Assembly (NCBI GenBank): GCA_016872645.1
Contig: VGZH01000062.1
Span: forward strand, 1-34,054
Reading direction: 5' to 3'
Origin: Planctomycetota bacterium
Lineage (GTDB): Bacteria; Planctomycetota; Planctomycetia; Planctomycetales; Planctomycetaceae
DNA length: 34,054 nt
The notes under the pieces were generated by a model. That model made no database searches. It was not told the origin of the DNA and worked only from the letters and a program-made list of their open reading frames with translations. Both the position numbers and the translations under genes were made by a program. The first letter of the stretch is position 1. Each line of letters begins with the position of its first letter. Below, piece by piece: positions 924-34,054 of the stretch.

Positions 924-991
924 TGGGTTCGGAAGAGAGTTCAAAGCCCGCATTGGTGGTCCCCGATCATTCGGGAACGGGAGGGTTTCAC

Positions 992-2404
992 ATGAGACGT
1001 GGTGGAATTGTGTTGCGACTGTACGAAATTGCAGGCGTCTTCGTCGTAGCGTTGCTCACATGGTTCGGCGAACGAGCGATCATGGCCGACGACGCCAGGC
1101 CTGCGGGCTTTCGGCTCGCGACGTTCTCGACCGACGTGACGCCGCCGCTGGGACATTCGTTACTGGGCGGAACGACGACTCCGCCGCCGGCGCATCGGAT
1201 TGACGACCCGTTGCTGGCGCGCGGGTTTGTGCTCATCGGCGGCGAGAAGCCGGTTGTCGTCGTGTCGATCGATTGGTGCGAGATTCGGAACGACGCTTAT
1301 GACCGCTGGCGCGAGGCGTTGGCGGAGGCGGCCGGGACGACTCGCGAGCGGGTGCTCGTGACGGCGATTCACCAGCATGATGCGCCGCTCGCGGACTTGG
1401 AGGCTCAGCGGATTCTCGATGCCAGCAAGCTTGGCGGATCGATCGTCGATCCGGCCTACCACGAGCGATCAGTGCAGGCGACGGTCGCGGCGTTGCGGGA
1501 AGGACTGAAGTCGGCGCGGGGAGTGACTCACTTCGGCACGGGGGAGGCGAAAGCGGTCCGCATCGCGTCGAATCGGCGGTACATCGGACAGAACGGCTTG
1601 CCGAAGTTTGATCGCAGCAGCATGAGCGGCGCGGATGCCATGAAAAGTCAGCGGGACGAGGGAGTCGTCGATCCGTGGTTGAAAACGCTCAGCTTTTGGG
1701 ACGGCGACACGCCACTGTGTGCGTTGCATGTCTACGCCGTGCATCCGATGTCGAACTGGGGTTCCGGCCGCGTCACCGCCGACTTCCCCGGAGCGGCGCG
1801 GTTGCGAATGCAGGACGCTCACCCGGAAGTGTTCCAGATTTACGCCTCGGGCTGTTCGGGCGACACAACGGCGGGTAAATACAACGACGGCGGTCAGGTC
1901 GCCCAGCGAGCGTTGCAGGACCGGCTTTTCGACGCGATGTCCGCCTCGTGGAAATCGACAAAGCGGCAACCGCTGACAAGGCTCGACTTTCGCAATTCTC
2001 CGTTCGAACTGCCACTGCGCACGACGGCCGGGTACTCGGAAGCAGACCTCAAGCAGCAACTTGAATCGGACGACTCGAAGAAGCGGTGCCTCGCGGCGCT
2101 CGCGCTGAGTTGGCGGAATCGGCACGCGGCGAAGCAACCGATCGATTTGCCGGTCCTCGATTTCGGCTCGGCAGCCGTCGCGCTCCTGCCGGGCGAAACC
2201 TACGTGGCGTTTCAGCTGGCGGCTCAACGGATGCGCCCGAACGATTTCGTCATCGTCATGGGCTACGGCGAGTCGGCTCCCGGTTTCATCCCGATTGAGC
2301 AAGCGTGGAAGGAAAACGACAGTAATCTCTCGTCCTGGTGCTGGGTCGATCCCGGCTGCGATCCGATCATGACCGCCGCGCTTCGCAAGTCTCTCGCGCC
2401 GTAG
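992..2404 (+). CDS. Secreted neutral/alkaline ceramidase-like hydrolase
   Basis: The protein has 470 residues. I chose ATG 992 because GGGAGG lies 7 bases upstream at 979-984 and the first residues form a signal peptide (MRRGGIV ... VALLTWFGERAIMA, ADD). The open frame reaches back to 788 but that part lies over the previous gene. The mature part opens with FSTDVTPPLGHSLLGG, followed by DPLLARGFVL and VLVTAIHQHDAP, then LHVYAVHPMSNWG and ASGCSGDT. This matches the N-terminal catalytic-domain pattern of neutral ceramidase-like proteins, where histidines of such motifs bind zinc. Animal and Pseudomonas ceramidases are longer (about 650-750 residues) and carry an extra C-terminal domain, absent here. 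Planctomycetes hold many such short forms whose true substrate is not known. It follows the previous gene by 68 bases. Confidence 0.8.
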   Translation: MRRGGIVLRLYEIAGVFVVALLTWFGERAIMADDARPAGFRLATFSTDVTPPLGHSLLGGTTTPPPAHRIDDPLLARGFVLIGGEKPVVVVSIDWCEIRNDAYDRWREALAEAAGTTRERVLVTAIHQHDAPLADLEAQRILDASKLGGSIVDPAYHERSVQATVAALREGLKSARGVTHFGTGEAKAVRIASNRRYIGQNGLPKFDRSSMSGADAMKSQRDEGVVDPWLKTLSFWDGDTPLCALHVYAVHPMSNWGSGRVTADFPGAARLRMQDAHPEVFQIYASGCSGDTTAGKYNDGGQVAQRALQDRLFDAMSASWKSTKRQPLTRLDFRNSPFELPLRTTAGYSEADLKQQLESDDSKKRCLAALALSWRNRHAAKQPIDLPVLDFGSAAVALLPGETYVAFQLAAQRMRPNDFVIVMGYGESAPGFIPIEQAWKENDSNLSSWCWVDPGCDPIMTAALRKSLAP

Positions 2405-2441
2405 TTGCGCGCGGAATTCATCGCGGACATCCGAGTCGGCT

Positions 2442-2620
2442 GGTTCGCGAGTTCTGTCACTGCGATCGAAGACGCTCTTCAAAGAAGGTGAAGCGGCACC
2501 GAGTGAGCCCGCCGTGTATGTGCATCCGCGCGGGACCGAGATGATGACGCATTACGCTCGGTCGGCCGATCACGGTCAGACGTGGAGGTTGGCTCAGGCA
2601 ACGCCCTGGGTAGGAGGTCG
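2442..2620 (+). pseudogene. Sialidase (BNR) fragment
   Basis: One frame reads TLFKEGEAAPSEPAVYVHPR and then ARSADHGQTWRLAQ, which is the start of a sialidase-type propeller with one Asp box (S-x-D-x-G-x-T-W). The match fades after about PWVGG near 2610 and no further blades follow. There is no convincing start codon or signal peptide. This is best read as a leftover of an extra sialidase gene at this locus. The rest of the 2405-3104 stretch contains two further short coding-like pieces listed separately. Confidence 0.5.
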
Positions 2621-2697
2621 AATAAACATTCGGAGGCCCCGAAGACTGGGGCAGGAAGAACTGGAGAATTCGCCGCAAAGTGGCGCTGTCCAATTAG

Positions 2698-2985
2698 TCA
2701 TTTGCGGACTTCCAGGGTCCCCACTCCGCCGCCGAACGGCCCAAGGCGAATAGTTCGGTCAACAACGAACCAAACTCTCGTTCCGTCCGGTTCGCTGATC
2801 TCGCGCCACCAGGCCATCGCCGTCCCGAAACTTCCCCGGCACGGACGCTGGGCCAGCGGTTCGGTCACCAGTACCTGCCGGCGTTCCGCGCGCGGATGCT
2901 GGCTGACGCCTCTCGCAAGACCGATCACATACTTGCCCGAATGAAACTGTATATTCTGAACCACGGTCAGATTTGCGCGATTCAC
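2698..2985 (-). pseudogene. Coding-like fragment of unknown family
   Basis: A 95-residue frame with a GTG start, preceded in frame by a TAG two codons upstream. Third-position GC is high, as in neighbouring real genes, and the peptide looks beta-rich (FHSGKYVIGLARG, then GSFGTAMAWWREI and WFVVDRTIRLGPF). I do not recognise the family. It could be the C-terminal end of a decayed gene or a small gene; no ribosome site is clear. It partly overlaps the next fragment on the other strand. Confidence 0.3.
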
Positions 2986-3104
2986 CGACTACAATGGGGC
3001 ACTCGCCGGCCGATTCGCCTTCTTCCGACTGACGGAGAACTTCTACGGAAAAGAAGACACCGGGTTGAACGGTCTGTATAGGACGGACGGGACAGATGGG
3101 GACT
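2960..3104 (+). pseudogene. Coding-like fragment of unknown family
   Basis: Following a TGA at 2957, one + strand frame reads through RFARFTDYNGALAGRFAFFR and TENFYGKEDTGLNGLYRTDG with strong GC in third positions, and then runs into the antisense of the epimerase gene at 3105. No start codon fits. It looks like the internal remains of a gene cut at the 3105 boundary. Family not recognised. Confidence 0.25.
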
Positions 3105-3980
3105 TCATCGCGCCGGCACGGCCTTGGGAAATCCTGCCGACTGGCTCTCGGCGGCCATGGCTCGCCAGTGGAATTGCGGTTGCCATCCGAGCATCCGCTT
3201 GAGCTTCTCGCAATTCACGAGACCTCGCTGATCGTGGAGATCCCCACGAACGTCAGTGACCTGTGGATAGTATTCGGCCAGTAACTGCCGCGTCGGCGCG
3301 TCGAAGCAGACGTCGTCGGCCGCCACGTTGAAGGCCTCGAAGCCGGTACGGTCCGACCGCAGCCAGGCGAGACAGGCGGTAGCCACGTCGCGTGCGTCGA
3401 TATAGGACCAGAGCGAGTCAGCGGCGGCCGCGACCGTCTCCGTGAACTTGCGGAACCGCCATTCGTACGACCCTTCGTAGACGATCCGCTGGGGTCTTAG
3501 CGCGGCGATCGACAGGCCGTGCCAACGGGCGTAATGCGTCGCGAGCGTTTCAAGATTCTGCTTCACGGCGCCGTAGATGCCGTCGGGACACGCCGGCGAC
3601 TGCTCGTCGATCGGCAAATAGGGTGCCCGACTATATTCACCGTAGATCATCGGACTGCTGGCCAACACCACGCGCGGGATTTTCAGATTCGCGGCCGCCT
3701 GGAGTACGTGATAACCGCCCAGTGCCAGATTGCGATACGATGTCTCCCAGGTGGTCCAGGAGTCGGTCGGCAGGCTGCCAAAATGAACCACCGCAACAGC
3801 TCCTGCCAGCGCGTCATGAACACCGGCGCCATCCTCCAGGTCCAGTTGCCGGTAGTTCTGTTCCCAAAAGCCGCACGGCTTAAGGTCGATTCCCAGTACG
3901 TCGTAGCCCGCTTCTCGCAAGACGCGCACGATCGATGTCCCGGTTCCTCCTTTGGCGCCTGTCACGACAACTTTCTGCAT
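3105..3980 (-). CDS. NAD(P)-dependent epimerase/dehydrogenase, extended SDR family
   Basis: The 291-residue protein starts with a Rossmann fold: the dinucleotide motif TGAKGGTGTS lies at residues 7-16 (G-x-x-G-x-x-G type), with acidic D32 after beta-2. The catalytic SDR set is visible as ASSP near 107-110 and Y136-G-A-V-K140. Family knowledge: extended SDRs oxidise, reduce or epimerise sugars or sugar acids; uronate and aldose dehydrogenases are of this type and somewhat shorter. The start ATG lies 42 bases after the stop of the dehydratase gene, so both are probably one - strand operon. With a lactonase-like gene across the divergent promoter, an oxidising sugar dehydrogenase is a more attractive role than an epimerase, but that is inference. 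Confidence 0.85.
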   Translation of the reverse strand: MQKVVVTGAKGGTGTSIVRVLREAGYDVLGIDLKPCGFWEQNYRQLDLEDGAGVHDALAGAVAVVHFGSLPTDSWTTWETSYRNLALGGYHVLQAAANLKIPRVVLASSPMIYGEYSRAPYLPIDEQSPACPDGIYGAVKQNLETLATHYARWHGLSIAALRPQRIVYEGSYEWRFRKFTETVAAAADSLWSYIDARDVATACLAWLRSDRTGFEAFNVAADDVCFDAPTRQLLAEYYPQVTDVRGDLHDQRGLVNCEKLKRMLGWQPQFHWRAMAAESQSAGFPKAVPAR

Positions 3981-4022
3981 GGTCCCCTGCTTTCACTTAT
4001 CTCTACCAGATTTCATCGAGAG

Positions 4023-5192
4023 TCAGATCAACGGTGTCGCTCCGTCGGCCTGCCCGTATCGCCGGGCGGCCAATGCGATGTGGCCCCGCGATTTCACCAG
4101 TTCCATGTTCAATTCAACACCGAGTCCCGGTCGGCGGCCCAGTTCGTTCACGTCGACAGAACCGTTTACGACCGGCACCCGCAGCGTCTGTACCTGATCA
4201 AACCAGGGCTGAATCGGGCAGTGTTCGAGGATCAGAAAATTCTGAATGGCCGCCGCCACATGGGCGCAAGCCGCCAGGGCAACCGGCCCATACGGGTTAT
4301 GCGGCGCCATCAGGATGCCGTAAACCTCGGCCACGTGCGCGATCTTGACCAGTTCGCTGATCCCGCCGCAGTGACTAGGATCCGCCTGGCATACGTCGAT
4401 CGCCTGCTGCTCGAACCAGGGTCGGAAGTCCCAGCGGGTGATCAACCTTTCCCCCAGCGCGATCTTCACGTCGGGAAAGTCGCGTTTCAGTCGCAGGGTG
4501 GGTTCAAGCGTGTCCTGGTTCGTCGGCTCTTCGACAAACAGCATGTTGAGCGGTCGCAGGCCGGCGATCAAACGGTGGGCCTGTTGCGGATCGAACATGC
4601 CGGCGGCGTCGATCATCAGGGCGACGCCCGGCCCCAATGTTTCTCGAAATCGAGCATGTTCGGCGATCGCCACGTCAACCTGCCGGTTACCGTCGTACGG
4701 AACCGTCGGCGTGCCAAAGCCATGTTTGAATGCATCGAACCCGAGTTCTCGCGTCACGCGCGCGGCGGTGTCGCGGTCCACTCCGGCGAATTCCGGGCCA
4801 TAGCGAATGTAACAGCGGACCTGTTCGCGAACCTTGCCTCCGAGCAACTTGAACACCGGCACTCCAGCCGCTTTTCCCGCGATATCCCACAATGCCATGT
4901 CGATGCCGCTCATCGCACTGGAATGTACGACGCCGCGTCTCCACCAGAAATCGCGGTAGCCCAACTGCCAGATGCGCTCGATCTCGGTCGGGTCGATCCC
5001 CAGCAGTCGCGGCTTCAGTTCCGTTTCGACCTGGGCCTGCACCGCCAACTCATGATATTCGGTCGTCGCCTCGCCGATTCCGCGAAGGCCCTCGTCGGTG
5101 AAGACCTCCACGAAGATCCAGTTCCGCAGCGCTGCGACGCCCCGTGAATCCGGGACGTTCATGACATGGCAACGGATATCGGTAATCTTCAT
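4023..5192 (-). CDS. Mandelate racemase/muconate lactonizing family sugar-acid dehydratase
   Basis: A full-length (389 aa) enolase-superfamily enzyme. The capping domain covers roughly residues 1-125 and the barrel 126-380. Metal ligands are seen with normal spacing: D195 (LMIDAAG), E221 (LFVEEPT) and E248 (ALGERL). H298 lies in APHNP and K156 in FKHGF. The HNP type and overall length resemble D-galactonate dehydratase-like acid-sugar dehydratases. However, the second histidine two residues after the first metal Asp in galactonate dehydratase is Ala here, so the exact sugar acid is open. It acts in the cytosol and would make a 2-keto-3-deoxy acid. It is first in a two-gene operon with the SDR gene and divergent from the SMP-30 gene. 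Confidence 0.85.
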   Translation of the reverse strand: MKITDIRCHVMNVPDSRGVAALRNWIFVEVFTDEGLRGIGEATTEYHELAVQAQVETELKPRLLGIDPTEIERIWQLGYRDFWWRRGVVHSSAMSGIDMALWDIAGKAAGVPVFKLLGGKVREQVRCYIRYGPEFAGVDRDTAARVTRELGFDAFKHGFGTPTVPYDGNRQVDVAIAEHARFRETLGPGVALMIDAAGMFDPQQAHRLIAGLRPLNMLFVEEPTNQDTLEPTLRLKRDFPDVKIALGERLITRWDFRPWFEQQAIDVCQADPSHCGGISELVKIAHVAEVYGILMAPHNPYGPVALAACAHVAAAIQNFLILEHCPIQPWFDQVQTLRVPVVNGSVDVNELGRRPGLGVELNMELVKSRGHIALAARRYGQADGATPLI

Positions 5193-5341
5193 GGCGAGGC
5201 TTCCAGCATGGGTTGGATGAGGTCGGCCATGTCGTGGCTAAGTGTGTTTCGTCGCATCGTCATGCAGGACGACTCCGAGGAAAGCGTGGCGGCGGTGCGC
5301 ACCGCACCGGAGGCAGTCCTGCGATGATCGTGCAAAGTCGC

Positions 5342-5404
5342 TTGAACCACCCGTAGAAATTTGAACCACCTTAAGAGAATGATTATCATACAACCGGTTT
5401 GAAC
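5342..5404. promoter_or_regulatory. Divergent control region with direct repeat and palindrome
   Basis: The 264-base gap between the dehydratase (-) and SMP-30 (+) genes holds TTGAACCACC twice, at 5342-5351 and 5361-5370, 19 bases start to start. It is followed by ATGATTATCAT at 5379-5389, an inverted repeat around one base, then AACCGGTT at 5392-5399 and a third TTTGAAC at 5398-5404. This part is much richer in AT than its surroundings. Two-turn spacing and symmetry suggest regulator binding for one or both promoters; ATGATTATCAT also faintly resembles half of a Fur box. No regulator gene is near. No exact -35/-10 pair could be fixed. Confidence 0.35.
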
Positions 5405-5456
5405 GTCAACACTGAGCTGGCTGCCGAAAGGAGCACGCTCGCCGTCGGAGGTTGCG

Positions 5457-6326
5457 ATGGACGTTAGCTGGAAGATCGTCGCGACGGGCATCGTTTCTCC
5501 AGAGGGGCCAGCCGCTGATCTCTCCGGGAACGTGTTTCTCGTGAGCCGCTGGACGGGGCGCGTCGTCAAGGTCGACCCGCAGGGGCAGGTCACGGAAGTG
5601 GTCCCGACCGGCGGCAAACCGCAATCGGTGGCACTTTTGGAGACCGGCGAACTGCTGTTGGCCGACGCCAAGAACCACGCGCTGCACAAGATCAGCCCGG
5701 CGGGATCGCTGAGCACGGTCGCCGAGACCATCGGTGGTCAACGGTTCATCGGCCCCAACGATTTGGTCATCGCCGACGGGCGAATCGTCTATCTCACCGA
5801 CCCGGGGCTCGACATGCAGGGGCCCGGGCGCATTCTGCGGATCGAGCTGGACACGGGCCGGACCGATCTTCTGGCGGACGGTTTTCGCTTTCCCAACGGC
5901 ATCACGATCTCGGCCGACGGACGCTGGCTGTATGTCGCCGAGAGCGTGACGCATCGAGTGCTGCGGTTTGAATTGCTGGACGATGGAAAACGTCTCGGTC
6001 CGGCCGAGCTGTTCTATCAGTTCGCCGACCACCATCCCGACGGGATCGCCTTCGACGCCGACGGCAACTTGCTCGTGACGCTCTGCGGCGGTGGAACGCT
6101 GGATATCGTTTCCCCCGACAGACAGCTCGTTGCGTCGATTCCCACCGGCGGCACCGACTGTACAAACATTGTGTTTGGCGGTGCCGATTTCCGGACGCTC
6201 TATCTCACGGAAGACAAGCAGGAGGCCCTGCTGGCGACACGTTGGCCTGTTCCTGGACAACGGCGGTACTCACGCAGTCAACCGGCCTCCTCATCACTCG
6301 ACCCCTCCGAGAGGCAGGGCTCATGA
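5457..6326 (+). CDS. SMP-30/gluconolactonase family protein (sugar lactonase)
   Basis: A 289-residue six-bladed propeller of normal SMP-30 length without signal peptide. Metal-binding residues expected for the family are in place: E16 (SPEGP), N101 (GPNDL), N147 (FRFPNGI) and D195 (HHPDGIAFD). Known members hydrolyse aldonolactones to aldonic acids with a divalent metal. The start ATG follows GGAGGTTGCG closely; the alternative ORFs on the other strand are shadows. The stop overlaps the ATG of the MFS fusion gene in an ATGA, so the two are likely translationally coupled. Together with the divergent SDR and dehydratase genes it fits a dehydrogenase-lactonase-dehydratase path. The last 25 residues are low in structure. 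Confidence 0.85.
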   Translation: MDVSWKIVATGIVSPEGPAADLSGNVFLVSRWTGRVVKVDPQGQVTEVVPTGGKPQSVALLETGELLLADAKNHALHKISPAGSLSTVAETIGGQRFIGPNDLVIADGRIVYLTDPGLDMQGPGRILRIELDTGRTDLLADGFRFPNGITISADGRWLYVAESVTHRVLRFELLDDGKRLGPAELFYQFADHHPDGIAFDADGNLLVTLCGGGTLDIVSPDRQLVASIPTGGTDCTNIVFGGADFRTLYLTEDKQEALLATRWPVPGQRRYSRSQPASSSLDPSERQGS

Positions 6327-9300
6327 CCGGGGTGCTGCCATCCCAAGATGCCTCACTGGCCGGAACTGCTCGGTTACCGGTCGTGGTGATCGTCGCGCTG
6401 ACGAGCTTCCTGTTCGCCAACATGCTGGAGTACGCCCTCCCCTTGTACTTCAACGCACTGGAGGGGTTTCCTCAGGACGTATGGTCGCAGCTGGTGTTGT
6501 GGCAGGTCATGCCTTGGATCATCGCGCCGTTTCTCGCCGGGCTGCTCGCGCGTCGGTTTGGCGAACGGCGCGTCTGGTCAGCGGCCTTGTTCGGTCAATC
6601 GCTGGTTCCGATCGCGCTCTTCGTCGCTCCGGAGCCGTGGATCGTGCGTCCGGTGGCCCTGTGGAGCGGTTTGACGGGAGCGCTCATGTGGGTCGGCGGC
6701 GTTTCACTGGTCCAAGTCGTCCCGCAACACCGCAAAGGGCTGGCGAACGGACTAATGATGATGTCGATGGGAGTCGGCAGCACGATCGGGCCACTCCTGG
6801 GTCGAACCGTTCTCTGGCGAGAGCATGTTGCGGATCTCGTTTCCAAGGAGAGTCTCGCGCGTGCCGGGGCATTCCTCATCAACCTCTCGCCGCCTCCCGC
6901 GGACGCTCCGCTGGGCAACTTCCAGATGATGATGGCCGGGCTGAGTGGCCTGGCGATTTTTGGTGCCGTGCTGATCGGACTCTTTGGCCAGCGGCCCGGC
7001 CAGGCTCCGGGCGACGATCAACTGCCTGGTCAGACGGTCGCCTCGCTGCGCGAACTCCTGGCGACGCCTCGCTTCTGGGCGCTGACCCTGGCGTTGTGTC
7101 TGCTGGGCGGCCCCGTCTTCCAGGCAACCAATCAGTTTCTGAAGTATCGCGCCGAGGATGTGGGCCTGATCGTCGGCGCCCAGGATCGTGGCTGGATCTG
7201 GCTCCAGTTGTTGCGCACGGCGATGTGGATTCCGGGCGGCCTGGCGGTGGGACTGCTGGCGGGCCGACGCGCGCCGGGCATCGCCGCCGTTGCCATGGTG
7301 GGCAGCTTCGCACTCGCCGGTAGCGGCATCGGATGGGCGACCTCGACGGGGTCGCTGTTCGCGGTCGTCGCGGTGTTTGAATTCGTGCGGCAGTTCATGC
7401 GCTGGTCGCACGCCGGATATCTCTCCGAGCATCTGCCGAATCGGCTGCGGAGCACGGCGATCGGCTGTGCTATTTCGCTTGCGGGGCTCGGCAGCACGCT
7501 GTACGGCGCCTTGCCGTTGGCGTTGATGGATCCCAACGAGAGTGGCTTTGACTCGCGGCTCCCCTTCTGGATTTCCGCCGGACTGGGACTGGCGGGAGCG
7601 GCAGGTCTTTTTGTTTTTGACCGTTTGAAACCGATTCGCCAAGACCGAATCGCCTACTCAGTCCTCACGCTGCTCGTTGTGATTTCTGGCGGTCTCTGCC
7701 CGGCGGAGGAACCTCTCTCACCGGTTTCACGCCATGTAATTCGCGGCGCGGAACAGGTAGTGGACGGGTGGGTGTCGACCGGGGGCGGTCACTCGTTCGA
7801 CAGCAGCAGCCAGCAGTTGAATGGCCGGCCGTGGGCCGAGTACGAGCGCGGACTGATGCGCTTCGATCTGAAAGCAATCGACCCGGCGCGGCACGGTCAG
7901 TTGAAACGGGCCGTGTTGCGACTGCATGCCGCCACGGTCGAGAACAAGAAGAACGTGCCCACGGTGGTTTCCGCGTCAAGCGTCGCCTGGAATCACGAAG
8001 CGACATTCCTGAGTCCCGATGGCACGTCGCGCTGGCCGGCCGATCGGAATCAGGCCGAGAACCTGGACTACGCGGCGATGGCACTGGGATCGGCACGGCA
8101 GGTCGTCACCAAACCGGGCCTGGTCGAATTCGACGTGACCGAGATCGTGGAGGCATGGCTGTTTCAGGGACAGGCGAATCATGGATTCCTGCTCACGATG
8201 GGACCGCCCATTTTTGGTCGACCGGATGCCGGCGCCTGGGGGCTCGAATTCGCCAGCTCCGAAGCGAAAGAGAACGGGCCGGAGCTGATCGTTGAACTGG
8301 AGGGAACGCCACCGACTCCCGAATTGGCCGAGCGACGAGCGCTGACGATTTATCCATCCGCCGCGCTGCCGCCCCTCAAAAGCCCCTACGCGATCGTCTG
8401 GTACGGCGTCCATGACAAGGAACTCTGGAAGCAGTTCAGCACATCGAACATGTCGACCTATGCCTCGATCCCGGAGTGGTTGGCGCAGCGCGGCGTGCTC
8501 GACATGACCTGGGGCGAAGGAGGCCCGATCGACTGGCTGCCCACGGAGGAAGCATGGGAGAAATACTATCTGGGCATCGCTGCGCGCAGCCGGGCTTACT
8601 GCATGCACGAGTGGCACATGTCGAGCGACAGCAACGACGCGCAGTGGGCGGTGCGGGCGGCGCGTCTGACCGAGTGGAAGCACCCCCGGTGCTACTCCGC
8701 CTTCTACTATCAGGGCCAGCGGGAAATGGCCGACTTGGCCGGGAAGGGGGAACTCGATCTGCTGATCCAGGAAGGGTACACACATGTCACGAAAGAGTTC
8801 CCGCTGGCCGCCGGTTTCACCGTGGGGATGCCAGGGATTGAGGAGCGGATCGACATCGCGCGTAAGGCCGAAGCGATCGAGCGGCACGTGGTGATGCTCG
8901 GTCACATTGCTCCCGCGGAGAAGTACCACCCCGGTCACGAACTGACTCCGGCGATGATCGAGGAACAGATCAGGCATCTGCGGAAATACGCGCCCGAGAT
9001 GCCGGGCATCGGCTTCTACTACGAGGGCGGCCGGGACCTCGCGATCGAATGCGACCGACTGGCTCGCAAGTATTTCGTCGACCCCGCGCCGGAAGTGGAG
9101 ATCGCGTCCCCGGCCCACGAAGCCCGCCTCTCGTCAACCGCCACTCCCCACGTAACAATCCGCGCCGACGCCCAGCCAAAGGGCGAATCGAAAGTGGTGA
9201 AGTATCGCTGGTTCATCGACAATCGGTTCGTCGCGGAAACCGACACCCCGCGGTACGTCTGGGATCTTCGCGGCGAAACGCCCGGCAGTCACTTCGTCAC

Positions 9301-9364
9301 CGTCCACGCGATCGACGATGGCTGGAACCGTTCCGCGGCACAGATCCTGGTTCGGTGTGAGTAG
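6323..9364 (+). CDS. MFS transporter fused to DNRLRE-like, hydrolase-like and Ig-like extracytoplasmic domains
   Basis: One uninterrupted frame of 1013 residues. Residues 1 to about 433 are a complete MFS permease (many hydrophobic helices, LLARRFGERR in the loop after helix 2, ending ISAGLGLAGAAGLFVFDR). It is immediately followed by KPIRQDRIAYSVLTLLVV and ISGGLCPAEE (about 436-465), which look exactly like a bacterial signal peptide. Residues about 470-670 resemble DNRLRE/CBM-type beta-sandwich modules (GRPWAEYERGLMRFDL, VEFDVTEIVEAWL). About 685-915 form an unidentified alpha/beta region with WYGVHDKELW, MTWGEGGPIDWL, CMHEWHMSS and MPGIGFYYEGG, perhaps a hydrolase barrel. About 920-1013 are Ig-like (YRWFIDNRFVAETDTPRYVW). 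The start ATG overlaps the SMP-30 stop. A TTG at 7625 could be a second internal start for the secreted half, but no good ribosome site precedes it. A 13th helix would put the C-terminal half outside the cytoplasm. Confidence 0.8.
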   Translation: MTGVLPSQDASLAGTARLPVVVIVALTSFLFANMLEYALPLYFNALEGFPQDVWSQLVLWQVMPWIIAPFLAGLLARRFGERRVWSAALFGQSLVPIALFVAPEPWIVRPVALWSGLTGALMWVGGVSLVQVVPQHRKGLANGLMMMSMGVGSTIGPLLGRTVLWREHVADLVSKESLARAGAFLINLSPPPADAPLGNFQMMMAGLSGLAIFGAVLIGLFGQRPGQAPGDDQLPGQTVASLRELLATPRFWALTLALCLLGGPVFQATNQFLKYRAEDVGLIVGAQDRGWIWLQLLRTAMWIPGGLAVGLLAGRRAPGIAAVAMVGSFALAGSGIGWATSTGSLFAVVAVFEFVRQFMRWSHAGYLSEHLPNRLRSTAIGCAISLAGLGSTLYGALPLALMDPNESGFDSRLPFWISAGLGLAGAAGLFVFDRLKPIRQDRIAYSVLTLLVVISGGLCPAEEPLSPVSRHVIRGAEQVVDGWVSTGGGHSFDSSSQQLNGRPWAEYERGLMRFDLKAIDPARHGQLKRAVLRLHAATVENKKNVPTVVSASSVAWNHEATFLSPDGTSRWPADRNQAENLDYAAMALGSARQVVTKPGLVEFDVTEIVEAWLFQGQANHGFLLTMGPPIFGRPDAGAWGLEFASSEAKENGPELIVELEGTPPTPELAERRALTIYPSAALPPLKSPYAIVWYGVHDKELWKQFSTSNMSTYASIPEWLAQRGVLDMTWGEGGPIDWLPTEEAWEKYYLGIAARSRAYCMHEWHMSSDSNDAQWAVRAARLTEWKHPRCYSAFYYQGQREMADLAGKGELDLLIQEGYTHVTKEFPLAAGFTVGMPGIEERIDIARKAEAIERHVVMLGHIAPAEKYHPGHELTPAMIEEQIRHLRKYAPEMPGIGFYYEGGRDLAIECDRLARKYFVDPAPEVEIASPAHEARLSSTATPHVTIRADAQPKGESKVVKYRWFIDNRFVAETDTPRYVWDLRGETPGSHFVTVHAIDDGWNRSAAQILVRCE

Positions 9365-9401
9365 CATCGCCGATGAGTATCACAAACAGAAGGGAAACTC
9401 G

Positions 9402-12400
9402 ATGATTGAAGGCATTCAAATCAGCCGATGGCGGTCCATGCTTCTGGGCGCGGTATTGGCTCTGTCGACCAGTCATCCTGTGATCCCCGCAGTAGCACGC
9501 GCCGACTGGCAGGGCCATGAGATTCGTCAGGGAGATGGAAATGGTGGCTGGGTCACGCGGCCCGCGCAGCGGAAGGTGCTCCGGCATCCAGACTGCGAGC
9601 ACACCATGCCGTTCGGCCTGGCGCAGATGGACAACGGCGAGATTGCGATCGTCGTCAGCCGAGAGAAGGCCGCTCCTGGCGGGGGACGGCTGTTCGAACC
9701 GAACATCGCCTTCAGCAAGGACGGCGGCGCAACGTGGTCGCCGTTCCAGGCGATCCCTGGAACCAGAGGCCGTCCCCAGTTTCTTCACTGGTTGGGTGGA
9801 GGAAACCTGTCGTTCGTGACCGAAGCGCTGGGGGGCGGTAAGCAGCAGCGGTTCTTCAGCGGCGACTACGGTCGCACGTGGAAGGAGAGTATTGACCATC
9901 CGGGAAGCAGCGACGGCAAGGGCTTTGGGATCGAGGGGAACGGCTGGGTCGATCGCGGCGAGAAGGGAACTCCTAAAGCCATTCTGGAAATCGGTTATCA
10001 CCTCGACGCTGGCAAGTCACACCCGCAGGGCGACTTCACCGGAATCTTCCGCCGCTCGGTCGATGGCGGCAAGACCTGGATTGACGAAGTCTCTCCGCCG
10101 CAGTGGAAGTTCACCGTCGAACACAACGGCAAGAAGTGGCTGCGGGGAGTCAGCGAAGGGGCGATCGTGCGGGCCGCCAACGGCGACCTGGTCGCAGCTC
10201 TGCGAACCGATATGCCGCCGAAGTATTTCGAGGGCCCGCACGATGACAGTCTCGAAGGTACAGCGATTTCGATTTCCAAAGACAACGGCAAGACCTGGTC
10301 GGATTTGAAGTTCCTGTTTGAAGCCGGGCGGCATCACGCCAATCTGCAGCGTCTGCCCAATGGCGATCTGGTCTGCACGCTCGTCGTGCGGGACGACATC
10401 CAGGCGGGCAAGCTCAGCAAGGGGGAGTTGACCAGTCACCGCCGGGGCTGCGACGCGCTGGTCAGTCACGACCACGGCCAGACCTGGAGTCTCGACCGCC
10501 GCTACGAACTCGACAGCTTCGAGTTCCTGCGCAAGGACGGTTATTGGGTGGACGGCGTCTGCGGACATATCGGAGCGGTGGTGCTGGACGACGGCCATGT
10601 GCTTTCGGTCTACGGCAACTACCCGGTCGGAGCGGTGCTGGTGAAGTGGAAGCCGGACGCCACTGCAGAGCAGGCCAACTTCTTCGTGTCACCCCTGGGC
10701 AAAGACGAGAACGCCGGAACATTTGACGCGCCGTTTCTGACGCTGGAACGCGCGCGCGATGCCGTCCAGGCCCTCAAGGCGAGATCACCGGATAAACCGA
10801 TCACGGTGCTGATTCGCGGCGGTACCTATCGCCTCGAACAGTCGGTCGTATTCAGCGGCCGCGATTCGGGGACGGCAGGCTCGCCCATCACCTACAAGGC
10901 CTATCCCGGTGAAACGCCGGTCTTCAGTGGTGGTCGCGTTGTCAGTGACTGGAAGCCTCATCGCGATCAGATCGTGGCCGCCCAGTTGCCGCAGATCGAG
11001 AACCATTACTACCGCTTTCGCGAACTGTTCCTGAACGGCCAGCGCCAGATCCGCGCCCGCTATCCGAACCGCGATCCCCAAGACCCGCGCTTTGGCGGCT
11101 GGGCGTTTATCGGGGCCACGCTCCCGGCCGATGATGCCGCACCCATTCGATTCACGGGCGAGAAGGGAGTCTTTCCGCGCCAGTGGGCCAAGCCCGACCA
11201 GGGGGAGATTTTCATCATTCCCGGCCTCGCCTGGAACAGTCATCTGATCCCGATCCGGGACTACAACCCGCAGACCGGCGAGATCACCGTGAGCCGTCGG
11301 CCGAATCAGGTGTGGGACCGGCTGATGAAGGGAAATCGGTTCTACGTCGAGAACCTGCTGGAAGAACTCGATCAGCCCGGCGAATGGTGCTTTGATACGC
11401 AGACGCGAATCCTGTACTTTTGGCCGCCGCAGGGAACGCTCGACGGCGCGGAAGTCACGATCCCCGTCATCGATCGGCTCATCGAACTGCGCGCCACGAC
11501 CCACGAACCGGTTCGGCATTTGCACTTTTCCGGTCTGACGTTTACGCAAACCCTTTCGGTCTTTCCCTGGATTCATCCGCTGAATCCCGACTATCTCGAA
11601 TGCAATCGTCCGAACTCCGGTGGCTTTGCATTTTACCTGGAGAACACGGAAAACTGCGTGATCGACGGCTGCCGGTTTGATCAGGTGGGGGGCGATGCGA
11701 TTCGCCTGCATGGCGCCAGCACGCGGAACCGGATCACGCGCAACGAAATCGTCGGCGCCGGCGCACAAGGCATCTGCTTCGCGGACCTCGAATTCTGGCC
11801 CTATCACTACCCGGCGGTGTGGCGCGGCAATGAAGCGAAGCTGCAGTCGGTCTCAAGCCGATTGCCGTGGGCGGTTGGCAACGTGGTTGAGAACAATCAG
11901 ATCCACGACTGCGGCGTGATCGACAACTTCGGCGCCGCGATCCATTTCCACGGTCAGAACACTGACGGCAACGTCGTGGCCCACAACCACATTCACGACC
12001 AGCCGCATCACGCGATCTACTTTTCGATGGGATTCGGGCAGAACATCATCGAGTACAACGACATTCACGATCTTTGTTACGTGATGGCCGACGCTGGCGG
12101 AGTCTACTGTAACCGTTGGAGCATTCTCACGGACGATCCGGTTCTGAACAAAAGCCAGATCATTCGGTACAACCGAATTCGAAACGTAATGGGAGTCGTT
12201 CCGCACGCCGTGGCGACCGACGACCCGGCCGGCACGCCCAGCCAGGATCGCATCCGGCGTCCCTATTTCACCTGGGGAATATATTTTGACAATTCGCCGC
12301 GACGAGTGCAGGTGTACGGCAACCTGTGCGTCGGAAACGTCTGGGGCGGCGTGTTTCTGGGGGGTGGTTATGCGGAACCCGAAGATTGCCTGGTCGAGAA

Positions 12401-12785
12401 CAACATCTTCGTCGACAGCAGTGTCTATCAATACGATGCCAGTATGAATGCCAACTCGCGAGGCAACGTGTTCCAGCGGAACATCATCTCCTTTTCCCGG
12501 CCAGACGCGTCCTTGCTGCGTTGTACTTCCCGCGAGGGAATCAAGAAGCTGGACGACAATCTCTATTTCCTGCAGGGTGGTGGGGCGCTGAAGGTTTCGG
12601 GTTTCGAAGACGGTTCGTTTGAGAAATGGCGTGCCGCTGGCTTCGACCGGAATTCGGTTGTCGCCGATCCGCTGTTTGTGGATCCGACGCGGGGCGACTA
12701 TAACCTGAAACCCGAGTCTCCGGCCTGGAAGCTGGGCTTCAAGCCGATTCCGTTCGAGAAGATCGGGATCAAAAAAGTCGAGTGA
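9402..12785 (+). CDS. Secreted sialidase-fold (BNR) protein fused to right-handed parallel beta-helix glycosidase-like domain
   Basis: The protein has 1127 residues. ATG 9402 is chosen for the preceding AGAAGGGA (9389-9396) and the signal peptide after it (RSMLLGAVLALSTSHPV ... AVARA, cut before DWQ). Residues about 40-425 form a sialidase-type propeller with five Asp boxes at about 105 (SKDGGATW), 153 (SGDYGRTW), 219 (SVDGGKTW), 292 (SKDNGKTW) and 355 (SHDHGQTW). From about 427 (FFVSPLGKDENAGTF, TLERARDAV, VLIRGGTYRLEQS) a parallel beta-helix starts. It resembles GH141/GH120-like planctomycete enzymes, with right-handed coils such as GCRFDQVGGDAIRLHG, NQIHDCGVIDNFGA and YNDIHDLCYVMADAGGVYCN. 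Family knowledge: both parts normally occur as separate secreted proteins. It lies 37 bases after the MFS fusion. The sialidase part need not be a true sialidase, because a YRIP-type arginine motif was not seen. Confidence 0.8.
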   Translation: MIEGIQISRWRSMLLGAVLALSTSHPVIPAVARADWQGHEIRQGDGNGGWVTRPAQRKVLRHPDCEHTMPFGLAQMDNGEIAIVVSREKAAPGGGRLFEPNIAFSKDGGATWSPFQAIPGTRGRPQFLHWLGGGNLSFVTEALGGGKQQRFFSGDYGRTWKESIDHPGSSDGKGFGIEGNGWVDRGEKGTPKAILEIGYHLDAGKSHPQGDFTGIFRRSVDGGKTWIDEVSPPQWKFTVEHNGKKWLRGVSEGAIVRAANGDLVAALRTDMPPKYFEGPHDDSLEGTAISISKDNGKTWSDLKFLFEAGRHHANLQRLPNGDLVCTLVVRDDIQAGKLSKGELTSHRRGCDALVSHDHGQTWSLDRRYELDSFEFLRKDGYWVDGVCGHIGAVVLDDGHVLSVYGNYPVGAVLVKWKPDATAEQANFFVSPLGKDENAGTFDAPFLTLERARDAVQALKARSPDKPITVLIRGGTYRLEQSVVFSGRDSGTAGSPITYKAYPGETPVFSGGRVVSDWKPHRDQIVAAQLPQIENHYYRFRELFLNGQRQIRARYPNRDPQDPRFGGWAFIGATLPADDAAPIRFTGEKGVFPRQWAKPDQGEIFIIPGLAWNSHLIPIRDYNPQTGEITVSRRPNQVWDRLMKGNRFYVENLLEELDQPGEWCFDTQTRILYFWPPQGTLDGAEVTIPVIDRLIELRATTHEPVRHLHFSGLTFTQTLSVFPWIHPLNPDYLECNRPNSGGFAFYLENTENCVIDGCRFDQVGGDAIRLHGASTRNRITRNEIVGAGAQGICFADLEFWPYHYPAVWRGNEAKLQSVSSRLPWAVGNVVENNQIHDCGVIDNFGAAIHFHGQNTDGNVVAHNHIHDQPHHAIYFSMGFGQNIIEYNDIHDLCYVMADAGGVYCNRWSILTDDPVLNKSQIIRYNRIRNVMGVVPHAVATDDPAGTPSQDRIRRPYFTWGIYFDNSPRRVQVYGNLCVGNVWGGVFLGGGYAEPEDCLVENNIFVDSSVYQYDASMNANSRGNVFQRNIISFSRPDASLLRCTSREGIKKLDDNLYFLQGGGALKVSGFEDGSFEKWRAAGFDRNSVVADPLFVDPTRGDYNLKPESPAWKLGFKPIPFEKIGIKKVE

Positions 12786-12793
12786 CGGAAGCT

Positions 12794-12931
12794 GATGACG
12801 TTGATGACTTCTCGCTTCGTGTATTGTTGAAGCGAAGTCAGGTACTTACGGCGCACGGCGTCGAACTGAGGAAGGCCGTCGCCAGAGCGCGACTTCCCAA
12901 GCTCTTCCAGAATTCCGCTCCAAGTCGGCAT
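12794..12931 (-). pseudogene. N-terminal remnant of an SDH_sah (serine dehydrogenase proteinase) family protein
   Basis: The frame starts MPTWSGILEEL and continues QFDAVRRKYLTSLQQYTKR, then becomes meaningless where it enters the end of the beta-helix gene. W-x-x-I-x-x-E followed by F-D-x-V-R-R-K-Y-L and Y-T-x-R is the usual opening of SDH_sah proteins, a ClpP-like family, from memory of the family. Only about 46 of the expected 280 or so residues remain. It starts 13 bases after the stop of the small gene at 12945-13178, in an operon-like arrangement. The + strand sialidase gene ending at 12785 marks the breakpoint. Confidence 0.5.
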
Positions 12932-12944
12932 AAACGATTCCTCG

Positions 12945-13178
12945 CTACGTTCCGAATACGCTTCCACCCGACGAATTTGAGACAATCACAACACGGTGAA
13001 TGCCGAGTAGCTGCTGATGAGCGCGCGCCACGGCCTCGTAGGGCTTCCACTGCTGATACACTTCCATGAGTTGTTGGATGCCGGGCTGCTTGGCAGCTTC
13101 GCTGATAAGCTCAACCAGTTCCTTCTGGCGATCTCGCTGCGGCTGCACTTTGCCTAACGGCTTTGTACGTTCGCTCAT
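12945..13178 (-). CDS. Small charged protein of unknown function
   Basis: A 77-residue frame starting MSERTKPLGKVQPQRDRQ, preceded by CGGAG 7 bases upstream. The middle (QKELVELISEAAKQPGIQQL, then EVYQQWKPYEAVARAHQQLL) predicts as two amphipathic helices; the tail is VVIVSNSSGG. A longer frame reaching 13667 exists but its N-terminal part overlaps other coding signals and the start of the sialidase gene, so I reject the long form. It appears to sit between a short fragment (13196-13306) and the SDH_sah remnant as an old three-gene unit. Function unknown. Confidence 0.45.
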   Translation of the reverse strand: MSERTKPLGKVQPQRDRQKELVELISEAAKQPGIQQLMEVYQQWKPYEAVARAHQQLLGIHRVVIVSNSSGGSVFGT

Positions 13179-13195
13179 GGGATGACTCCGATGGT

Positions 13196-13306
13196 TCATA
13201 GGGTTTCTTTGGTTGCTGCCTGCGACCAGTCCTTCTGGCCGACTTCGTATCGAATGACGCTGACTTCCTCCTTTGGTGAGAGTTTCGACGCCGGGTCTTG
13301 GATCAT
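13196..13306 (-). pseudogene. Short C-terminal coding remnant upstream of the small charged gene
   Basis: A 36-residue frame, MIQDPASKLSPKEEVSVIRY then EVGQKDWSQAATKETL, ends 17 bases before the next ATG on the same strand. The same frame continues upstream beyond one TGA as RAPWNSANEFVTYDER, suggesting a longer ancestral protein broken by a stop. A further frame reads VRRQAIIVEYKQ near 13390-13425. The gap 12786-13581 therefore seems to hold the decayed front of a - strand operon rather than spacer. Confidence 0.3.
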
Positions 13307-13581
13307 ATAGCGCTCGTTGACCGAGGTTCATCGCTCGTCGTAGGTCACGAATTCGTTGGCCGAATTCCATGGTGCTCGTTTGACTACGACGATTGCTGTT
13401 TATACTCAACGATGATAGCTTGTCGCCTGACTTCTTGCCACGCAATAAGATAAAGGCACAAAACCTCTTCGGCGGAAGCAGGATATGCGAAATCCTACCG
13501 CCGGTGAGGACGATCGTCGCCTCGGTCGAGGGCATTGAGAGCGATCCAGAAGTTGAGGCCATCGACATTGAGGTTGTCAAA

Positions 13582-16128
13582 ATGATCAACCCCCAGGCGT
13601 TGCTCGAAGCGCTCACTTTGTCGGTCGTCATCGCGGCAACCATCGGCGTCCGCGCCCAAGACGACATCTCGCGCGATCAGCCGTCCGGTCTGTCATTTCG
13701 CTATGAACGGTCTGCCAGAGATACCAAGACAATCCGTCAGTTCGAGGGCAAAGTAGATTCCGTCGAAGGGGTCGTGCACGTCTGCGCTACAATCCAAATG
13801 GGGCCGGCGAATCCGATCAGGTACGTCGATGGTCTGCCCGAATGGCAACCGGCAGGCGATGTGGTCGAGATCGACAAGTCGCAGGTTCCGACGTTTACCA
13901 GAGAAACAGTGCCGGGTGGATTCGAAATCCAGGAACACGAGCCGCTGCCGGACGGGCATCCACAGTTGCTGGAAGTGATCGCCTTGGGAACTCGACGTGA
14001 CGGAAAATTCACGCCGGCTGTCCGGTTCGGGCTGGGCAACGATGGCCGTGGTGAGAAGATGGCCCATGTCAACTGCTGGATTTCCGACGGCCGCATCGAT
14101 TACTTCGCTCCGTTCACTCGGCCCAACACGCCCTATGATTTCAAACTGCAAGTGGATTTGAAGAACAAACGTCTCTCCGCGTGGGTCAGCGGATGGGGTG
14201 ACGACGACTGGTTTCCAGTGGCAGAAGATGTGATCTTGCACAGCGACTCGCCGAAGATCGACTGGGTGCAAGTTGAGATGACTCCGGATGCTCCTCCGAT
14301 TGAGGGACTGCAACTCCGGACGGAGCCAGCCCCTGGATCGGAATCGGTGCGACCTCATCCCCTCGCTAAACAGAATCGTGTGGTGGATGTCGAACGGGGA
14401 TTCCGCTTTCAATCGCTGCGATCCACGTGGCGCATACCCGGCAAGCATGTCACCATTTTCCGAGAACCTGGAGTCCATGCGGGATTTCCCGATGTGACGC
14501 TGGCCGGGAAGGACCATCTCGTCTGCGTCTGGCGGAACAGTTCGCATACCGGCGGCAGCGGCAACGGAGGCGGTCTGTCGGTCGCGCATAGTTACGACCT
14601 GGGACAAACGTGGGGAAGACCGGAAAGTGTACCAACGCCGGCGGGCGTCTACCAAAACTGTCCTCGTCTGCAACGATTGAACGACGGCGCCTTGCTCATG
14701 CTCGTGGACGTTCCTTCGGGCGGAGACCAGACCGTCGCCACCTGGGATGTCTTGTTGCGCGACAGCCGAGATGAAGGCAAGACCTGGATCAACGAACGCT
14801 GGCTGCGCGCGAAAGAGGTTGGCGGCGGAGGCGGTATCGTGCCCAGTCGCGTCGCCGAAATGGACGATGGCTCCTGGTTGCTGGCCGCGTCCTACTTTGC
14901 CAAGCCGGGAAACGTGGAAATCCTCGATTACTATCGTTCCAAGGATCGCGGCAAGACCTGGGAGTTCATCGGGCAGCCGCATCACTTTCCGCCTCATTCC
15001 CTTTCCGAGCCGAGTCCCATTCAGCTCGCCGACGGACGTCTGTTCGTCATTGCCCGCGAATCGCGCGTCGACGGTTTGCAGGGGGCGAAGGGCTTTTCGA
15101 CAGACGGTGGCAAATCCTGGAAGTACCAGCACGTGCCGTTTCCGATCACCGGGCGGACGTGTGCCGGCCTGTTACAAGATGGTCGTCTGATGGTGACATT
15201 CCGCTCGGGCGTGGGACGGGCCGCGCTGCGTGCCTGGATTGGCGATGTGGATGATCCCACCGGACCGCAGCCAGCCGGCGGTCACTGCAACGATCGGTAT
15301 TCCATCGGCCTGAAGGACGGCGTGTTTCATTTGGATAATGACGGGCACCGTGGCCAATTTACGATGTATAATCTGCGTCCCGCCGATTCGGCCAAGACCA
15401 TCGTCGATTTGACCTTCGAGGTTCTGGTGCGGGCGAATGCAGGCCGTGCGGCGAGCGTGTCGGTACCGTTTGCCGGCGTGTTGCGCTTGTTTCCCGACCA
15501 CGTCGTCATGGCCCACAATCCCCAGCTGCGGGCCGAGATCGCGCCCGGTGAGTTTCACACCTACCGAGTCGTCAGCCGGACCGGCCGCATGGAACTGTTC
15601 ATCGACGGAAGACCTGCCTGGGACACCGATCAGGGCGACAGCCGCCTGAGCGAGTTGCCGTGGACTCTGATCAGCAGCCATGCCCTGGCGTTCGGCAACG
15701 AGCCGCGCAACCCGTACGAGGTCTTCGGGTACGATTACTATCGGTTCAAGGTTCAGCATCCGGATCTGTACGCGGTTCAGATTTCGCCGAGTGTGACCGG
15801 TTACAGCCAGTGGCGACGCTTCGAAGCCGTCACCGAAGACCCGGCAGCGGGACGCCATGTGACGTCGTGGTCCGCGGCCCACGACGGGTTCCCCGACCAG
15901 CATCAACTCGATCACATCGTCGAAGTGGAGGCCAGCGCCAACGGCCATGAACAAGGCTACTCCGGCTGGGTGCAACTCGGCGACGGCCGCATCTTCGTGG
16001 TGCATTACACCGACGACACCGCCGCGGCCAGCAGTGCCAACCCGCACATGTTCGGCGTCCCCTGGATTCGCGGCACGTTCTTGTCGCTGGATGATCTGCC
16101 GCCCAGGAAGCTTGGGGACTCGAAATGA
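13582..16128 (+). CDS. Secreted sialidase-fold (BNR repeat) protein with LamG-like region
   Basis: The protein has 848 residues. ATG 13582 is favoured by GAGG at 13570-13573 and a signal peptide (ALLEALTLSVVIAATIGVRA, cut before QDD); the frame is open back to 13393 but that part is not protein-like. N-terminal residues about 30-230 form a beta-sandwich. Four Asp boxes follow at about 337 (SYDLGQTW), 395 (SRDEGKTW), 453 (SKDRGKTW) and 506 (STDGGKSW). Residues about 570-720 (FTMYNLRPADSAKTIVDLTF, FIDGRPAWDTDQGD) resemble a LamG/concanavalin-like binding module. It faces the FG-GAP gene tail to tail, 38 bases apart. Strictly, the fold is clear but sialidase activity is not. It probably belongs to the same + strand unit as the beta-helix gene, interrupted by the 12786-13581 relics. 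Confidence 0.8.
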   Translation: MINPQALLEALTLSVVIAATIGVRAQDDISRDQPSGLSFRYERSARDTKTIRQFEGKVDSVEGVVHVCATIQMGPANPIRYVDGLPEWQPAGDVVEIDKSQVPTFTRETVPGGFEIQEHEPLPDGHPQLLEVIALGTRRDGKFTPAVRFGLGNDGRGEKMAHVNCWISDGRIDYFAPFTRPNTPYDFKLQVDLKNKRLSAWVSGWGDDDWFPVAEDVILHSDSPKIDWVQVEMTPDAPPIEGLQLRTEPAPGSESVRPHPLAKQNRVVDVERGFRFQSLRSTWRIPGKHVTIFREPGVHAGFPDVTLAGKDHLVCVWRNSSHTGGSGNGGGLSVAHSYDLGQTWGRPESVPTPAGVYQNCPRLQRLNDGALLMLVDVPSGGDQTVATWDVLLRDSRDEGKTWINERWLRAKEVGGGGGIVPSRVAEMDDGSWLLAASYFAKPGNVEILDYYRSKDRGKTWEFIGQPHHFPPHSLSEPSPIQLADGRLFVIARESRVDGLQGAKGFSTDGGKSWKYQHVPFPITGRTCAGLLQDGRLMVTFRSGVGRAALRAWIGDVDDPTGPQPAGGHCNDRYSIGLKDGVFHLDNDGHRGQFTMYNLRPADSAKTIVDLTFEVLVRANAGRAASVSVPFAGVLRLFPDHVVMAHNPQLRAEIAPGEFHTYRVVSRTGRMELFIDGRPAWDTDQGDSRLSELPWTLISSHALAFGNEPRNPYEVFGYDYYRFKVQHPDLYAVQISPSVTGYSQWRRFEAVTEDPAAGRHVTSWSAAHDGFPDQHQLDHIVEVEASANGHEQGYSGWVQLGDGRIFVVHYTDDTAAASSANPHMFGVPWIRGTFLSLDDLPPRKLGDSK

Positions 16129-33736: not shown

Positions 33737-33850
33737 TCATCTGGCCAGAGTGAATTTGGCGTGATGGAGTGTGAGTAGTCGGAGTTTGAAGTGGTCGTAG
33801 CGGCGATAGCCGTAGGCTCGGCTGTGGACGACGGTTGAAAATGGCGGCGC
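33737..33850 (-). pseudogene. Possible transposase C-terminal remnant
   Basis: One - strand frame ends VVHSRAYGYRRYDHFKLRLL followed by TLHHAKFTLAR and a stop at 33737. A final R-x-Y-x-x-R-x-x-D-x-x-x-L-R pattern is found at the end of some ISL3-like transposases, but the upstream frame is not clearly coding, and no terminal repeats are visible. The remaining 33851-34054 shows nothing I can name. Confidence 0.25.
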
Positions 33851-34054
33851 TGGTCGGCTGAATGTGGTGGTGCTGGGTCGTTGCGGGACTCCTGCGGGTT
33901 GCGGTCGGGGTTCGTCATCGCGGTCAGATGCCGAGTCTGGTTGAAAAACGCCATGTGGTTCGGGAAGGTCGCAAACGCTACCCGTTTTTTCGACCGAATG
34001 AGGCAGGTCGAGAGCGACCGAAGAGACGCCGGTTCTGATGCTCGCGTAGGGCGG

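Follow-up and report, generated by a model that had tools for sequence, protein, structure and literature searches.

The stretch of DNA analysed here, called the window in its full length of 34,054 nucleotides, is contig VGZH01000062.1 of assembly GCA_016872645.1 from a bacterium of the Planctomycetaceae, and its forward strand carries at positions 6323-9364 one open reading frame (ORF) in which a permease of the major facilitator superfamily (MFS) continues in frame into what resembles a secreted protein. The gene for an importer and that for a secreted, probably sugar-handling protein have thus probably been joined in one uncultured planctomycete lineage, while the relatives that we examined keep them unjoined. 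The parts of the fused gene are:

6323..7639, plus strand: MFS permease half, residues 1-439, ending in FDRLKPIR (MFS_1 profile, unfused relatives, AlphaFold2 helices)
7625..7627, plus strand: TTG once proposed as a start, coding for L435 in the MFS C-terminus (alignments with unfused MFS proteins)
7640..7714, plus strand: junction, made up of QDR, a 15-residue hydrophobic core IAYSVLTLLVVISGG and a possible signal-peptidase site CPA/EE after residue 461 (hydropathy, alignment with the standalone protein L013)
7841..8296, plus strand: DNRLRE/CBM96-like module, residues ~507-658 (NCBIfam NF033679)
8333..9097, plus strand: beta/alpha (TIM-barrel-like) domain, residues ~671-925, with the invariant Glu 763 (codon 8609-8611; 30-sequence alignment, model)
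9089..9304, plus strand: Ig-like Big_7 domain, residues 923-994 (PF17957)

The frame comprises 1013 codons with 0 internal stops. As delimited mechanically it opens further 5', at TTG 6242, and ATG 6323 overlaps the stop of an upstream gluconolactonase-like (SGL) gene as ATGA. The GC content of third codon positions (GC3) lies at 0.65-0.88 in ten 300-nt windows and at 0.69 in the final short one, and it is the highest of the three positions in every window except that spanning the junction (7523-7822), where positions 1 and 3 tie at 0.65. All the parts named by the initial annotation (complete MFS, signal-peptide-like segment, DNRLRE module, alpha/beta region, Ig-like end) were recovered with Pfam and NCBIfam profiles, hydropathy and modelling. 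Residues 22-393 match Pfam MFS_1 (PF07690; 56.2 bits, cutoff 33.4), and the AlphaFold2 (AF2) model, with pieces one residue apart joined, has twelve membrane-length helices between residues 18 and 435, at a predicted local distance difference test score (pLDDT) of 43-89 in the blocks over residues 11-430. The 50 PDB rows returned by Foldseek for this half are, as we take it from their titles and general knowledge, MFS structures; a PDB sequence search with the half gave no match at E <= 0.01. In the C-terminal half (C-half), the DNRLRE model scores 52.1 bits (cutoff 34) and Big_7 27.6 bits (cutoff 24.1), whereas Pfam CBM96 (PF24517), for which PMC9971899 describes an alginate-binding example, stays below its cutoff on residues 509-657 (16.2 bits versus 26). 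A C-half profile found no PDB sequence at E <= 1.

Scanning the genome contigs with the whole protein yielded 11 loci, which are the second fused copy L012, one C-half locus (L013) and nine MFS loci (L014-L022). The whole protein was matched by 9 of 59 relatives at E <= 0.001, mostly weakly, the MFS half, at E <= 1e-30, by 9 of the 397 genomes of the class, the two with fused copies included, and either half by 8 of 170 family genomes at E <= 1e-15; partial or weak matches were not counted as relatives of either half. Unfused MFS relatives are 44-55% identical to the MFS half by tblastn, and the PIR motif (residues 437-439 here) is present in all 14 distinct unfused MFS loci whose ends were read, with a stop 7-31 codons later; this count omits L022 and G1053 (MFS broken over two frames), and L036, L038, L039 and L121/L127, which repeat L014, L020, L003 and L017 by sequence identity (L121 by the length of its contig and its position there), were counted once.

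The C-half likewise exists on its own. A single-sequence search of 392 phylum genomes matched 12, full length only in G000 and G402, the genomes with the fused copies, whereas a profile search of 397 class genomes matched 11 at E <= 1e-6 and added full-length copies in G690, G737 and G759, so that misses of the single sequence are not absences. In the phylum of L013 (Armatimonadota by tree labels), 47 of 291 genomes match the profile at E <= 0.001, with essentially full-length copies in G761 (= L013), G767 and G1042, and the family search contributed G1085, whose sequence contains masked residues. Leaving out G970, where the C-half extends over two frames with a gap, there are seven full-length C-half proteins outside the lineage, 0 of them with an MFS; five start with their own signal-like segment and two (G737, G759) follow a BNR-type domain that has one, as judged by eye. 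One of the closest counterparts, L013 from a Candidatus Zipacnadia metagenome-assembled genome (MAG), is a standalone 570-aa DNRLRE-barrel-Big_7-like protein with a 55% identical C-half (DNRLRE 60.7 bits), but its gene stands apart, with an ATG and a signal-like segment of its own, adjoining an aldo/keto reductase and a DUF4838 gene. The C-halves of G737 and G759, 52% identical, are also joined to an N-terminal partner, but there the partner is not a permease; it is a BNR-type domain whose N-terminus, scanned in G737, is signal-like. In the C-half tree, the C-half of the window groups with the planctomycete copies (99/97) and then with L013 (98/98). Viral contigs held no relative of the whole protein and, searched with the barrel alignment, none of the barrel.

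These two separate states bear out a fusion of two ancestral genes, as had been proposed; the further proposal, that adjacent genes merged when the stop separating them was lost, gains no support from the three genomes with both halves (G690, G737 and G1085), which hold them on different contigs. No adjoining pair turned up in the stretches read there: by tblastn those of 7-15 kb around the halves (L115, L117, L126, L128, L129) contain one half each, the MFS contig of G690 (L038) having been read over 4.3 kb. It would be at least as likely that a rearrangement placed the C-half gene after the MFS, with loss of the MFS tail and of the start of the C-half, as that a single stop was lost.

The same fused frame is present in a second assembly, on contig VGZA01000079.1 (G402:C79, locus L012). 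Over window positions 478-15361 the two sequences have 42 differing columns, all within 8735-9104, and they are identical base for base over 478-8734, including 7560-7700 and the junction, which makes a frameshift or local indel at the junction unlikely. That an assembly or sequencing artefact has joined two genes is very improbable: both assemblies are fragmented and L012 departs from the window in two isolated patches, but the junction is the same in both, and the joint is in frame, with the whole MFS motif before it and the whole signal-peptide-like core after it. We therefore regard the ORF, from its sequence features, as a genuine, lineage-restricted in-frame gene fusion. Within the C-half, the two copies differ by 24 nucleotide changes in synonymous codons and by 11 codons with an amino-acid change, one in-frame 3-nt indel having been set aside with its two codons, an excess of synonymous change as expected for a protein under constraint. 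The 370-bp patch 8735-9104, which holds all 42 differences of an otherwise identical 14.9-kb stretch, may reflect recombination with a diverged allele or a strain-mosaic assembly; 23 further differing positions lie between 17523 and 18272.

G402 is classed in another family of the same class, although it contains the 17.8-kb contig C79, which hardly differs from the window. This contig ends at window position 18310, within the gene for a 719-aa protein, and on C1 G402 carries another copy of that region, 71% identical, so we treated the two assemblies as one lineage and did not count G402 as an independent origin of the fusion. Tetranucleotide profiles built from ten stretches each of G000 and G402 assign window 24-34 kb to G000 (0.960 versus 0.901 for G402) and leave window 1-12 kb undecided (0.924 versus 0.937). 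The presence of C79 in G402 is likely due to misbinning or recent transfer. A short stretch at about 33823-33915 of the window recurs, at 82-88% identity, in several contigs of the genome to which the window belongs; some copies sit at contig ends (C18, C50, C71), and the repeat may limit assembly.

The hydropathy of the junction peaks at residues 443-461 (Kyte-Doolittle 1.94), inside the residues 436-465 first given for the segment, and the AF2 model has a low-confidence helix at residues 444-456. The junction aligns with the ATG and signal-like segment of L013, and by eye it has features that would suit a signal peptide, namely a basic RQDR, the 15-residue core and CPA/EE, with Cys at -3 of the putative cut. 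Because C-half relatives without an MFS begin with a signal-like segment of their own, the retained hydrophobic segment is most likely a former signal peptide, now possibly acting as a 13th helix. The initial annotation had considered TTG 7625 as a start; this is probably not the case, because L435 lies within the MFS C-terminus conserved among unfused relatives, just before PIR. It is accordingly improbable that the secreted half is produced on its own from an internal start (TTG 7625 or a GTG further on), whether or not the full-length chain is also made. The product from TTG 7625 would begin MKPIRQDR..., a plausible n-region of a signal peptide, but the unfused relatives that share this stretch have no start there to keep, and there is no purine-rich ribosome site at the usual spacing, the nearest purine-rich stretch being GGCAGG (7600-7605), which ends 19 nt upstream; the start rules of planctomycetes may, however, differ.

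Loops assigned to the inside from the model helices contain 14 Lys and Arg in 90 residues, versus 7 in 100 for those assigned to the outside, and the basic RLKPIRQDR that precedes the core is in favour of an N-in/C-out 13th segment. In a Gram-negative-type envelope this should put the C-half in the periplasm. In the proposal that a 13th segment would place the extra 550 residues outside, outside would therefore mean the periplasm if the usual planctomycete envelope applies. The signal-like segment is short, however, and may be cut; processing by signal peptidase I has to be taken seriously as an alternative, because the core has only 15 residues and is followed by CPA/EE: one chain would be translated and cut after CPA (residue 461), giving a free periplasmic protein and an ordinary MFS, and the fusion would couple only the expression and stoichiometry of two proteins. 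The resemblance of the segment to a former signal peptide and the signal-like starts of the homologues speak for such processing, whereas the Cys at -3 and the position of the segment after the twelfth transmembrane helix, which could hinder or alter processing, speak against it. We consider cleavage a real though less than even possibility, and continued attachment slightly more likely.

For the beta/alpha domain, thirty sequences align over ~250 positions, three of which are invariant (Glu 763, Pro 891 and Gly 895, numbered as in the window), and at E <= 1 these sequences gave no relevant match in Pfam or NCBIfam, including to any profile of a glycoside hydrolase (GH) family, the few rows obtained looking chance-level and HMMER filters dropping most matches above about E 0.1. 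An AF2 model of the barrel from three sequences reached a pLDDT of 55.9 and a predicted template modelling score (pTM) of 0.57, and its strands and helices alternate. Chitinases and related barrels dominate the best VIA matches of this model of pLDDT 56, but Z does not exceed 7.7 and so stays below the caution level of 8; Foldseek returned nothing at E <= 0.001, its top rows including both GH5 endoglucanases and unrelated folds. The barrel profile gave five weak rows in the PDB at E 0.63-0.76, consisting of designed proteins (8i8y twice, 11cp) and the GH114 chains 8rg5_A (E 0.66) and 8rg3_A (E 0.76). The catalytic motif of GH18 is DxxDxDxE; by eye it was not seen around the invariant Glu in the 30-sequence alignment, where it stands in contexts such as IAIDE, YCMHE or FCGHE. 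With the VIA Z below 8, no family is claimed. Our best guess from the models is a glycosidase-like TIM barrel, of which Glu 763 would, by its invariance, be a candidate catalytic residue. Residues 671-925 and the 29 other sequences appear to constitute an uncatalogued beta/alpha domain family of Planctomycetota and the phylum of G761/L013, with several members adjoining DNRLRE-like modules.

The fused gene stands among genes that suggest a role in sugar and sugar-acid metabolism:

4023..5192, minus strand: enolase-superfamily sugar-acid dehydratase-like gene, divergent (MR_MLE_C, E 4e-57)
5457..6326, plus strand: SMP-30/gluconolactonase-like (SGL) gene overlapping the MFS start (PF08450, E 4.3e-41)
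9402..12785, plus strand: BNR-type domain joined to a GH141-like beta-helix (domain matches, comparison with L127 and G019)

For the dehydratase-like gene the best NCBIfam model is galactonate dehydratase, at 283 bits and below the cutoff of 311, and the locus also encodes an epimerase-like enzyme. MFS relatives are often found near MR_MLE, SGL, DHDPS or HpcH genes; among ten distinct MFS loci compared, the MR_MLE gene directly follows the MFS in four (L014, L017, L128, L129), lies elsewhere in the locus in another four (L015, L016, L018, L020) and was not found in L019 and L021. A similar locus is L017, from a deep Lake Baikal MAG, with a 55% identical MFS and SGL, MR_MLE, epimerase-like, BNR and GH141-like genes similar to those of the window, the SGL gene being 67% identical and lying two genes upstream of the MFS. 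It differs in that its MFS ends 23 codons after PIR and is followed by the MR_MLE dehydratase, no C-half having been found in the locus.

The gene downstream of the fused ORF is itself composite. Its joint lies near 10665; the BNR part shares 69% identity with a gene of L127 that stands by itself (434 aa), the GH141-like part is 41% identical, and in L127 and in G019:C350 (L143) the two parts are separate neighbouring reading frames. Two neighbouring genes of the window are therefore fusions relative to L127 and G019. The second gene of L127 has a signal-like start to which the window has no counterpart. At E <= 1e-40, 20 of 99 relatives match the gene 9402-12785, some in long open frames (up to 1211 codons), and there may be other fusions of BNR and GH141-like domains among them. 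A fragment at the start of a G025 contig (L142, G025:C889:1-657) covers window 12120-12770 at 86% DNA identity and encodes an 89% identical fragment of the end of the GH141-like gene.

Since the locus contains a GH141-like partner and sugar-acid enzymes, we infer a path of periplasmic glycan trimming, product import and non-phosphorylative oxidation. An MFS permease for a sugar or sugar acid, with 12 helices and both termini inside, would have lost its variable cytoplasmic tail and would now run into the signal peptide of a secreted protein consisting of the DNRLRE module, the TIM-barrel-like domain and the Ig domain. The old signal peptide would serve as an N-in/C-out segment that places the last 550 residues in the periplasm, where the attached module would most likely bind or trim oligosaccharide beside the importer, together with the BNR-GH141-like protein; the released sugar would then be imported and degraded by the lactonase/dehydratase pathway encoded alongside. 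GH141 enzymes include alpha-L-fucosidases and endo-fucanases (PMC10154630, PMC12786026), and planctomycetes have been seen taking polysaccharide into the space between their membranes (PMC5520146). That all of this holds together, i.e. that a genuine fusion carries a periplasmic module attached via the old signal peptide which trims or binds oligosaccharide beside the importer, we regard as an evenly balanced proposition. A more specific version, in which a glycan-binding module and an uncatalogued family of TIM-barrel glycosidases acting through Glu 763 are tethered to the MFS by a signal-peptide-derived 13th helix as a single-chain capture-cut-import protein, seems rather unlikely.

Several observations weigh against the attached periplasmic module. 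The hydrophobic core, at 15 residues, is short for a membrane anchor; the full-length AF2 model has a mean pLDDT of 56.4 and a pTM of 0.43, is poor beyond the MFS and falls to 28-41 in the junction blocks; and no enzyme family is assigned to the barrel. The fusion was found in one lineage and in no other among the genomes examined, none of the 11 same-genus genomes searched matched either half, and the two assemblies may represent one population and are not independent evolutionary cases. In addition, the fused MFS half is altered at 10 of 106 columns invariant in the other 14 rows, which themselves change at 0-12, and it forms the longest branch of its tree (1.23, with 1.17 and 1.09 for the next two). 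Its confinement to one lineage and the changes at otherwise invariant columns would also fit a neutral or decaying fusion, in which one half or both have lost their use, but 1013 codons without a stop, coding-type GC3 and the predominance of synonymous change in the divergent patch of the C-half speak against decay, which we judge to be a slim prospect.

A functional parallel to the proposed attached module is found in PepT1 and PepT2 of the POT family of the MFS, whose extracellular Ig-like domain binds trypsin (PMC4597091). These are likewise MFS importers with an extra non-cytoplasmic domain, thought to bring a hydrolase to the importer; there, however, the extra domain forms an insertion inside the MFS fold, and what it recruits is a protease, whereas the protein described here has ~550 residues after the last helix, connected via a former signal peptide and including a putative enzyme-like barrel. 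The comparison is a functional analogy and no homology is claimed. An MFS or other transporter fused to a hydrolase or secreted domain was not found in titles and the beginnings of abstracts, a body of literature whose coverage largely leaves out subscription journals.

In bacteria, the release of a sugar and its uptake are usually the work of two different proteins, an enzyme and an importer. A covalent link between the two, if true, would allow substrate channelling across a membrane to be tested directly. It would also illustrate how a former signal peptide, by turning into a transmembrane segment, can give a permease a large domain on its far side. In addition, the fusion draws attention to a beta/alpha domain family that has no name yet, seen in Planctomycetota and in L013's phylum, and that deserves an enzyme assay.

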